Part shown: positions 12,325 through 14,661 of the stretch, in pieces | How positions within the stretch are numbered: the first letter of the stretch is position 1 | Layout of the letters: each line of letters begins with the position of its first letter | DNA from: Isoptericola halotolerans | GTDB lineage: Bacteria > Actinomycetota > Actinomycetes > Actinomycetales > Cellulomonadaceae | NCBI RefSeq assembly: GCF_003003075.1 | Contig: NZ_PVTX01000001.1 | Coordinates: 186,001 to 250,000 of the forward strand | Direction of reading: 5' to 3' | Length of the DNA: 64,000 bases | Translations under genes and position numbers: made by a program | The notes under the pieces: model-generated | The model's database searches: none | Told to the model about the DNA's origin: nothing | The model's input: only the letters and a program-made list of their open reading frames with translations

Positions 12325-12368
12325 TTGCGCTCCCTGTCGACCTTCGCTAGGGTCGAACACATGTTCGA
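12325..12368 (+). promoter_or_regulatory. SOS box (LexA site) overlapping a leaderless promoter and start codon
   Basis: TTGCGC (12325-12330), 17 bp, TAGGGT (12348-12353), 7 nt, ATG (12361) is a leaderless promoter. TCGAACACATGTTCGA (12353-12368) exactly matches the mycobacterial SOS box TCGAAC-N4-GTTCGA. It covers the transcription and translation start, so LexA bound here should block initiation. Confidence 0.8.
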
Positions 12369-14049
12369 AGACGACGCTTCCCACCCGGCGCGGCACGCCG
12401 TCGGGGCTCGTCGTGCGCGAACCCCAGGTCCCGGTGCGGTCGGTGCCCCGACCGCACCGGGACCGACTCTTCCTGATGCGCGGCCGACCGTCGGGGACGC
12501 AGCGTTCGTGGACGACGGCGGCACGGGTCTCGAACGTGAGCTGGCCGACCTGCTGGCGGTCCGTATCGGCGCGGCGCACCCCTACACGGCGCTCGAGCTG
12601 TCGCCCGCCCTCGGCCCCGGCGCCGACGGTGGGGTGCGCGTCCACGGTCATGCTGCCGCCAGTCGGGCGCTCACCCACGACGGCGGCCTGACGGCTGGGG
12701 GCCCGGCGATCGAGGCCGCGCTCGCGGACGCTCCGGGGCCGTCCCTGGCGGCGAAGCTGGCGGGTGCGGAGCCCGCGGACCTCGACGACACGTCCCTCGT
12801 CGAACTGTTGGCCGCCTGGGAGCGGCTGGCGGCCTGGGCGCAGGCAGGTTCCGCCGCGGCGCTCGGCGAGCTGCTGCACCGGACGCGAGGCTCCTCCCGG
12901 CACGAGTTCGTCGTCGACGAGGTCTCGGCCAGCCTGGGGCTGAGCCGGCACGCCGCGGCGCAGCACGTCGCGGTGGCCCACGGGGCGCACGCGATACCCG
13001 AGGTCGCGGACGCGATGTCGGCGGGAGCGGTCGACCGGCGCAAGGCCGAGGCGCTGGTCTCGACCGGCCGGCTCGACGACGCCCGCCGGCGCGAGGTCGT
13101 CCGCGAGCTCCGGCCCGACCTCGAGCACCTCACGGTCCGGCAGATCCGCGACCGGCTGCGGCGGGCCGAGATCGCTGCGGACCCGGCCGGTGCCGCTGAG
13201 CGTCACACGGAGGCGCGGCGCACCCGCTCGGTGGTGCTGGAGCCGGTCGACGACGCGATGGCCTACCTGACCGCCTACCTCCCCGCCGACGACGCCGCGC
13301 GGGCCTTCGCGGCGATCGACGGGACGGGCGTCGCGATGCACAGGACCCCGGGAGAGGTGCGACGGCTCGACGAGTGCCGGGCCGATGCGCTGGTCGCCCT
13401 CGTGACGGGAGCCGTCGAACCTGCCGCCGCGGGCGTCACGCCCAGCGCCCGGCCGTCCGGCACCCGGCCGTCCGGCACCCACCCTTCCAGCACCCACCCT
13501 TCCAGCACCCAGGCGTCCGGCGTGCAGGTCACCATCGCGGCCTCGACGCTGCTCGGCACCGACGACCTCCCGGCGATCCTGGCGGGCTACGGCCCCATCC
13601 CGGCCCCGATGGCGCGGACGATCGCCACCGACCCCGACGCGACGTGGCAGCGGATCCTCACCGATCCGGTCTCCGGGGTGCTGACCGACCGCTCACCGCT
13701 CTCGTACCGACCGAGTCCTGCGCTGCGCGCCGCCGTGGTGGCCCGCGACGCCACGTGCACGTTCCCCGGCTGCTTCGTGCCGGCGTCGCGCGGCGACCTG
13801 GACCACATCGAGCCGTTCGAGCGGGGGCACGACGGTCCGCAGACCCACGGCGACAACCTCCACCCGCTGTGCCGCGCGCACCACCGGGCCAAGACGACCG
13901 GCGGCTGGTCGGTGGCGCGGGACCCCGTCACGGGGGCGAGTACCTGGACGTCACCCACGCAGCACCGGTATGTGCGCGCGCCGTACCGGGCGGACCCGGC
14001 GCGCTCCCGGCCGCGTCTGCGGGCCGGCGATGCCCCGCCGCCCTTCTGA
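12361..14049 (+). CDS. DUF222 / HNH-endonuclease protein of the 13E12 repeat family, SOS-controlled
   Basis: Starting at the leaderless ATG, the protein has 562 residues. An alpha-helical DUF222 region (about residues 130-350) precedes an HNH nuclease domain near the C terminus: CTFPGCFVPASRGDLDHIEP, then GDNLHPLCRAHHRAK. This is the architecture of the mycobacterial 13E12 family. The linker holds five consecutive 15-bp repeats (13450-13524) encoding RPSGT, RPSGT, HPSST, HPSST and QASGV. The substrate of such proteins is unknown; DNA cleavage or repair is inferred from the HNH motif and from DNA-damage control. A perfect LexA box overlaps the start, and several M. tuberculosis 13E12 genes are also LexA-regulated. 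Confidence 0.9.
   Translation: MFEDDASHPARHAVGARRARTPGPGAVGAPTAPGPTLPDARPTVGDAAFVDDGGTGLERELADLLAVRIGAAHPYTALELSPALGPGADGGVRVHGHAAASRALTHDGGLTAGGPAIEAALADAPGPSLAAKLAGAEPADLDDTSLVELLAAWERLAAWAQAGSAAALGELLHRTRGSSRHEFVVDEVSASLGLSRHAAAQHVAVAHGAHAIPEVADAMSAGAVDRRKAEALVSTGRLDDARRREVVRELRPDLEHLTVRQIRDRLRRAEIAADPAGAAERHTEARRTRSVVLEPVDDAMAYLTAYLPADDAARAFAAIDGTGVAMHRTPGEVRRLDECRADALVALVTGAVEPAAAGVTPSARPSGTRPSGTHPSSTHPSSTQASGVQVTIAASTLLGTDDLPAILAGYGPIPAPMARTIATDPDATWQRILTDPVSGVLTDRSPLSYRPSPALRAAVVARDATCTFPGCFVPASRGDLDHIEPFERGHDGPQTHGDNLHPLCRAHHRAKTTGGWSVARDPVTGASTWTSPTQHRYVRAPYRADPARSRPRLRAGDAPPPF
13450..13524 (+). repeat. Five 15-bp in-frame tandem repeats in the DUF222/HNH linker
   Basis: Two copies of CGGCCGTCCGGCACC are followed by two of CACCCTTCCAGCACC and one diverged unit. 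Together they encode a flexible (R/H/Q)-(P/A)-S-(G/S)-(T/V) linker between the DUF222 and HNH parts. Copy number probably varies between strains. Confidence 0.85.
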
Positions 14050-14067: not shown

Positions 14068-14661
14068 ATGGAGTCGCACACGCCCGTCACGGCCGACCAT
14101 GTCGTGACCTGCGACGACGCCGGTCGCAGGATCGGTACCGTCGCTCGCGCCGAGGTACACACCACCGACACACCGCTGCATCTCGCCTTCTCCTGCTACC
14201 TGCTCGACGCCGAGGACCGGCTGCTCGTCACCCGACGTGCCCTGGTGAAGCGCACGTGGCCGGGGGTGTGGACCAACTCGTTCTGCGGGCACCTGCGGTG
14301 GACGGAGAGCACCGAGCAGTCCGTGGTCCGGCACGCCGCGCACGAGCTCGGTGCCGAGGTGGCGGGCATCGAACCGGTCCTCCCGGGCTTCCGCTACCGC
14401 GCCGTGGACGCCTCGGGGATCGTCGAGAACGAGATCTGCCCCGTCTACGTCGCGCGGGTGGTCGGGGGAGTGACGCCCAACCCTGACGAGGTGTCGGAGC
14501 ACGTGTGGGCTCCCGCGGACCAGGTGCGTGCCGCCGTCGAGGCGACGCCGTGGGCGTTCAGCCCGTGGATGGTGCGCCAGCTCGCCGACGCGGCCGCCCT
14601 CCCCGCGGCAGACCGGTCCGCCGGCGCGCAGGAGCTCGCCCACGCCCTCGGCCTCGCCTGA
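14068..14661 (+). CDS. idi: Isopentenyl-diphosphate delta-isomerase, type I
   Basis: The 197-residue Nudix-fold protein interconverts IPP and DMAPP for isoprenoid synthesis. FSCYLLDAEDRLLVTRRAL and KRTWPGVWTNSFCGH carry catalytic Cys73 and metal-ligand His75. RYRAVDASGIVENEICPVY carries the second essential glutamates, E120 and E122. The usual GHP-x-x-GE of the family reads GHLRWTE here, so the conserved glycine is lost while the glutamate is kept. The start is preceded by CAGGAT and a 6-nt gap, a leaderless-like arrangement. The C-terminal tail is alanine-rich. Confidence 0.94.
   Translation: MESHTPVTADHVVTCDDAGRRIGTVARAEVHTTDTPLHLAFSCYLLDAEDRLLVTRRALVKRTWPGVWTNSFCGHLRWTESTEQSVVRHAAHELGAEVAGIEPVLPGFRYRAVDASGIVENEICPVYVARVVGGVTPNPDEVSEHVWAPADQVRAAVEATPWAFSPWMVRQLADAAALPAADRSAGAQELAHALGLA

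Follow-up and report, generated by a model that had tools for sequence, protein, structure and literature searches.

Results

A probable LexA operator centred on a start codon

A gene for a nuclease-like DUF222/HNH protein of Isoptericola halotolerans is very probably under LexA control, as judged from a perfect SOS box that lies across its start codon, and its product ends in PPF, which probably works as a docking tag of the type found at the C-terminus of the single-stranded DNA-binding protein (SSB). The gene lies in a 64,000-nucleotide (nt) stretch of contig NZ_PVTX01000001.1 (assembly GCF_003003075.1, positions 186,001 to 250,000), which was analysed as a whole and is called the window here; the coordinates of the features are collected in Table 1.

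Table 1 Features of the DUF222/HNH gene in window coordinates (aa, amino acids; pLDDT, predicted local distance difference test)
Feature	Position	Strand	Remarks
LexA operator (SOS box) TCGAACACATGTTCGA	12353..12368	.	16-bp palindrome, dyad on start codon
-35 element TTGCGC	12325..12330	+	TTG-type element at same spacing in same-genus loci
-10 element TAGGGT	12348..12353	+	final T is first base of SOS box
ATG start, predicted transcription start (leaderless)	12361..12363	+	7 nt past -10; predicted from spacing
DUF222/HNH protein, 562 aa, plus stop	12361..14049	+	assigned by homology
DUF222 helical domain, residues 110-291, likely ParB/Noc-like fold	12688..13233	+	AlphaFold2 mean pLDDT 94
HNH nuclease domain, about residues 450-545	13708..13995	+	C466, C471, D481, H482, N499, C504, H508
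Low-confidence C-terminal tail ending GDAPPPF	13996..14046	+	pLDDT about 49-59
Putative SSB-type C-terminal tip PPF	14038..14046	+	directly before TGA 14047-14049

The operator TCGAACACATGTTCGA matches TCGAAC-N4-GTTCGA perfectly, and its dyad axis falls between positions -1 and +1 of the reading frame. TTGCGC and TAGGGT are the promoter elements, set 17 nt apart, and 7 nt separate the latter from the ATG. A gap of 7 nt from the -10 element to the A of the ATG is the spacing expected for transcription that starts at the start codon, so that the mRNA is predicted to be leaderless; no Shine-Dalgarno-like stretch was seen before the ATG at 12361. Coordinates, start codon and promoter geometry thus agree with the initial annotation, in which a perfect SOS box straddled the leaderless start of a DUF222/HNH gene. 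LexA, which we infer to bind at 12353-12368, would cover the end of the -10 element, the transcription start and the coding sequence up to its eighth base, and one dimer would therefore shut both the promoter and the start codon.

A first-order Markov model predicts 0.0026 exact matches to the box in the window, where one is observed, and 0.16 in the whole genome, where four are observed and the reversed pattern has none. On the window expectation, a chance palindrome at 12353-12368 was rejected. The broader alternative, that the palindrome is due to chance or is the site of another regulator and the gene stands outside the SOS response, is barely credible given this expectation, the register kept by 10 of 11 same-genus orthologues (see below) and the near-identical sites at lexA and recA. 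The genome encodes both LexA (LexA_DNA_bind plus Peptidase_S24) and RecA, the products being confirmed by Pfam, and each of the two genes has a one-mismatch box upstream; the LexA control proposed at the outset is thus well supported by sequence.

Within one mismatch, the whole genome holds 28 boxes compared with 8 for the reversed pattern. All five DUF222/HNH genes that were found in the genome, the window gene included, have such a box: it begins 35 nt before the ATG in two paralogues (C2:35139 and C1:457999), lies at 50 nt before the start in a third (C4:268437) and, in the fourth (C1:34103), is 75 nt away if an ATG is taken as the start and 27 nt away if a GTG is. Among the matches listed are three more SOS-like boxes, two perfect and one with one mismatch (C7:78408, C15:38880 and C6:147954), which precede a gene that looks methyltransferase-like by eye, a gene of 264 aa and a frame that looks transporter-like by eye. 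The 264-aa gene has no Pfam match and may be imuA-like. A radical-SAM gene of the same genome (L030:1550-3100, plus strand; C10:57325) is immediately preceded by an SOS box with one mismatch and probably contains an intein, with an Intein_splicing match below the Pfam cut-off.

The box across relatives

We scanned a sample of 164 distinct DUF222/HNH loci, obtained from 173 by dropping 8 duplicates and one locus with short upstream sequence, over a stretch that opens 500 nt ahead of the first position of the domain match and closes 60 nt past it. The sample comprises five loci from the genome itself, 29 family-level loci found by PF02720, 27 family-level loci found by the window protein, 29 class-level loci and 74 from named genomes. 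Each search contributed its top-scoring loci, up to 30 or 80 of them, so that the sample is no random draw and the fractions given here are no prevalence figures. The box is present within one mismatch in 71/164 loci and its reversed form in 0/164; within two mismatches, the counts are 85 and 2. In the sub-samples, 11/30, 18/29, 21/30 and 21/80 loci have the box within one mismatch, with none in an equally scanned in-gene stretch each time.

The layout on the start codon is conserved among same-genus orthologues. Of 11 such loci fetched, 10 have a perfect box in the same register, and the remaining one (L080) has none; all ten boxed loci have a TTG-type -35 element exactly 17 nt from the -10 element (counted by eye) and the same overlap of -10 element and box (by eye). 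One of the same-genus loci (L076) and the locus of Isoptericola sp. AK164 (L164) share both the box context and the C-terminus. Among the 71 boxed loci of the wider sample, the start codon lies inside the box in 27, including GTG versions that keep the palindrome, and where the box straddles the start the operator dictates an N-terminus of (M or V)-F-(E or D). Of 296 genomes drawn from the class, 187 contain the perfect pattern around a central ATG, with the reversed control near zero; of 30 such loci fetched, 10 lie at a DUF222/HNH gene, seven of them in frame and in four family groups, and these seven include the window gene and one same-genus orthologue. PF02720 itself is matched in 210 of the 296 genomes.

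The start-straddling layout that the initial annotation described thus holds for most of the same-genus loci fetched and for a part of the boxed loci, and it is not a family-wide rule: many members carry the box 3-75 nt upstream, and in the class-level best PF02720 matches it often lies a few to tens of nt upstream. In the named sample, the box is mostly absent from loci of Cryobacterium, Planctomonas, Lentzea and metagenome-assembled genomes of uncultured actinobacteria. On a tree of 75 proteins, the box state changed at least 12 times, a number that may be an overestimate, since the tree is a quick one and weaker boxes were scored as absent. With this many changes and this many members without a box, the suggestion that SOS control is ancestral to the family was not borne out. 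A variant of the box with the right half one base off, TCGAAC-N4-ATTCGA, recurs a few tens of nt upstream of the gene in four loci (L171 and L225 (Promicromonospora), L096 and L097).

A second, LexA-independent damage promoter

PMC5656591 gives TGTCRGTG-N8-TANNNT as the consensus that underlies induction by DNA damage without LexA in mycobacteria and discusses PafBC and ClgR as its regulators. We scanned the 164 loci for this motif, tolerating a single mismatch in its first block and gaps of 7-9 nt, and found it in 58, compared with one match for the reversed motif; the gap is 8 nt in 57 of the 58. Both switches are present in 25 loci, the LexA box only in 46, the second promoter only in 33 and neither in 60. 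In one locus (L071), promoter motif, -10 element, LexA box and ATG are interlocked in a single stretch. Neither the window gene nor any of its four paralogues belongs to the 58 loci with the second promoter. Between them, the two promoter types assign a large part of the DUF222/HNH family to the damage response without reliance on a single motif.

Family membership and domains of the window protein

Searched alone, the window protein escapes both Pfam and NCBIfam: it has no PF02720 match up to an E value of 10, and its HNH (PF01844) score of 16.8 bits is below the Pfam cut-off of 21.4. Its assignment to the DUF222/HNH family therefore rests on full-length homology to proteins above the cut-off. 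A same-genus protein (L073) with 78% identity across residues 1-562 scores 55.6 bits against PF02720 (cut-off 24.4), and the four paralogues, which are 33-42% identical to parts of the window protein, all exceed the PF02720 cut-off. A search of the genome for the SSB domain PF00436 returned two other genes and not the window gene, the product of which is thus not an SSB. No PADLOC anti-phage system was matched by the window protein or by two of the paralogues.

The HNH site appears intact, and nuclease activity can be presumed from it: in 75 sequences, C466, C471, D481, H482 and H508 are invariant and N499 and C504 are at least 90% conserved, and the structural matches of the domain are TagI, Cap5 and EcoKMcrA. 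The helical DUF222 domain looks ParB/Noc-like. With the model of residues 110-291, rows 1-15 of the VIA-align result are all ParB, Noc, Spo0J or KorB, and weak HTH_ParB matches occur in 5 of 61 aligned sequences. A profile search of the PDB with the domain ranked SigJ (E 0.0064) and TBP1, a telomere-binding protein (E 0.057-0.065), ahead of Spo0J (E 0.36). Foldseek with the full-length model returned nothing useful.

A gene on the plus strand at 14068-14661 of the window begins 18 nt past the DUF222/HNH stop and may be co-transcribed. By its motif it resembles a gene for isopentenyl-diphosphate isomerase; the motif was found downstream in 2 of the 11 same-genus loci.

An SSB-type end in one family of nuclease-like proteins

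The C-terminal tip of SSB docks its partner proteins. The main SSB of the genome ends in SDEPPF and has its last three residues in common with the window protein; the second SSB-domain protein has no PPF tip. Across the order, PPF with a D or E in front of it closes 26 of 30 SSB loci, and the remaining four (L256, L257, L260 and L262) were not read to their proper end, L260 elsewhere reading NDDPPF.

In none of five whole genomes does the bare pattern CCNCCNTTYTRR outnumber its reversed form (10 against 21, 33 against 41, 15 against 19, 24 against 31 and 19 against 24), so that the notable point is which frames end in PPF. Of the six sites in the genome itself, four belong to DUF222/HNH genes (four of the five, window gene included), one to SSB and one to a 50-aa frame that we judge to be no gene. 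The four further genomes contribute 59 sites, made up of 35 DUF222/HNH frames, 4 SSB, 16 frames below 80 aa and 4 others, which brings the total to 65 (39, 5, 17 and 4). Several of the frames below 80 aa in the four genomes we take to be the 3' end of 16S rRNA, and four of the DUF222/HNH frames are only 106-279 aa long and perhaps broken or cut. The four others are one TIR_2 protein, two frames overlapping with DUF222 tails and one unclear frame. Among the PPF-ending frames of at least 80 aa, 39/48 are thus DUF222/HNH proteins and 5/48 are SSB. The TIR_2-domain protein (L316:721-1626, plus strand, genome G008) ends in SEPPF; it is the only clear gene among these sites that is neither SSB nor DUF222, and it may use the SSB docking code too.

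In the sampled loci, PPF ends 74 of 160 complete members and 76 of 169 DUF222/HNH frames, with 38/57 at the family level and 2/29 at the class level, the latter being the best PF02720 matches. Outside the family, 19 of 2,164 frames with a length of 200 aa or more, antisense frames among them, end in PPF, and all 19 are in SSB loci fetched on purpose. In another background set, two of 980 frames do so, the window protein itself and SSB. The RecA of the genome (L027:1827-3032, minus strand) ends in KKAPF and is, SSB aside, the one protein with a PF ending in the background of 2,164 frames. No association between box and PPF tip was detectable in the 7 pairs available.

The tail before PPF varies freely among family members. 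An acidic residue lies within five positions before PPF in 69 of 76 tips (in the window protein, a D stands six residues from the C-terminal end), and the residue directly before PPF is D or E in 26. It is P in 43, and these tails, being proline-rich and reading PPPF, leave some room for an end that does not dock as in SSB and is instead a turnover signal, an intramolecular lock onto domains of the same protein or the product of drift. We consider this less probable, as PPF does not occur once in the 25,350 residues that precede the C-terminal three (last 150 aa of the 169 frames), and as the PPF-ending frames of the five genomes concentrate so strongly in this family and SSB. The pLDDT of the tail neither supports nor excludes intramolecular docking. 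Docking in the manner of SSB, for which the distribution of the ending argues, is the reading that we retain for the tip of the window protein.

Discussion

From these features, the following course of events can be proposed. DNA damage would remove LexA from the operator, and the leaderless mRNA of the window gene would be made. The product would bind DNA via its putative ParB/Noc-like helical domain, cut it with the intact HNH site and present the PPF tip at the end of a flexible tail, as SSB does to dock its partners, which are of the kind of RecO, PriA and RecG. The tip may let the nuclease occupy the SSB-tip pocket of such repair or fork proteins, and the docked nuclease would then be placed at SSB-managed single-stranded DNA during damage. 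We lean towards this reading, in which the window protein is a damage-induced, DNA-binding HNH nuclease that uses the SSB docking code. As for the family as a whole, it is an even call whether the DUF222/HNH proteins form a large arm of the DNA damage response in actinobacteria, made up of ParB-like nucleases under LexA and/or PafBC-type switches, many of them SSB-tipped and reaching or competing for SSB partners on single-stranded DNA.

Two other accounts of an SOS-controlled nuclease have to be weighed. The genes could be a selfish or gene-converting repeat (like REP13E12), the nuclease of which LexA silences until damage lets it spread. They are indeed multi-copy, with five in this genome, and another genome (G063) has 20 PPF-tipped frames, 17 with near-identical tails. 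However, matches in phage and plasmid records are partial (5/50,697 and 10/72,556 records) and nowhere reach 80% of the protein, and a selfish repeat alone explains neither the SSB-type tip nor the two kinds of damage promoter, which makes this account unlikely. We moderately favour a nuclease that acts in repair or fork processing over such an element. Phage or plasmid cargo was rejected, the matches in phage and plasmid records being partial only. The 17 near-identical tails (QPDDPPF; L286, L298, L302, L310, L332, L334, L335, L338, L339, L341-L344 and L346-L349) lie on one 4.4-Mb chromosome and suggest recent duplication or gene conversion.

Alternatively, the nuclease could degrade the chromosome of badly damaged cells and thereby kill them. 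According to PMC9416677, the M. smegmatis HNH nuclease MSMEG_1275 cuts DNA and kills when over-expressed, but four other over-expressed HNH genes left growth unstopped; MSMEG_1275 is known there as an HNH nuclease, and DUF222 and 13E12 are absent from the main text. The 4 to 20 tipped copies per genome would, moreover, be a heavy burden for a cell with such a device. We regard damage-triggered death as highly unlikely and retain repair or fork processing as the preferred role.

LexA control of 13E12 genes in M. tuberculosis, to which the initial annotation referred, is already in print (PMC4181829, PMC5005354), and the probable SOS control of the window gene is a further case of this known regulation. 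The former source describes 10 HNH-domain 13E12 genes, for which a role in mismatch repair is proposed, and the latter names four 13E12 HNH genes in the LexA regulon. PMC8151990 counts five putative HNH endonucleases in its set of genes that respond to mitomycin and depend on RecA, and PMC11022373 reports two 13E12 genes of M. intracellulare that changed under stress. The terms HNH, 13E12 and DUF222 do not occur in the main text of a LexA study of Streptomyces venezuelae (PMC9380542), and PMC10123090 was set aside as a DUF222 paper, since its matches are DUF2220. In a literature search that was mostly short of full text, we found neither a link of DUF222 or 13E12 to an SSB-type tip or ParB nor an assigned function for DUF222. 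What appears new here is that the protein carries an SSB-type tip, that two damage promoters occur across the family and that the DUF222 domain looks ParB-like. The proteins are numerous in actinobacteria, and the tip is a concrete and cheap handle on their function. Work by Davis (2002) and Smollett (2012) is reportedly what is cited for the LexA-controlled 13E12 HNH genes of M. tuberculosis.

With these M. tuberculosis genes, by their published description, the window gene shares the TCGAAC-N4-GTTCGA box, an HNH-type 13E12 product and a probable place in a damage regulon, and it differs in the dyad on a predicted leaderless start and in the PPF end. The LexA-independent damage promoter of the mycobacterial recA P1 type resembles the TGTCRGTG-8 nt-TANNNT motif of the 58 relatives, whereas the window gene has TTGCGC-17-TAGGGT instead. 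The DNA-binding domain of ParB, Noc and KorB may be matched by the predicted helical fold of residues 110-291. ZRANB3, a eukaryotic nuclease of replication forks that combines an HNH domain with a motif for clamp binding, docks on PCNA and is similar by analogy only, as an HNH nuclease with a partner-docking motif; no orthology is claimed, and the DUF222/HNH family profile reaches it with an E value of only 0.22. The C-terminal tip of SSB is resembled most directly, in a final PPF that follows a low-confidence tail with acidic residues mostly nearby. Unlike in SSB, the tip stands here on a nuclease-like protein and not on an oligonucleotide/oligosaccharide-binding fold, and P often replaces the D or E before PPF. 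If it works as in SSB, a nuclease that borrows the SSB docking code would represent a new way to steer cutting to single-stranded lesions.
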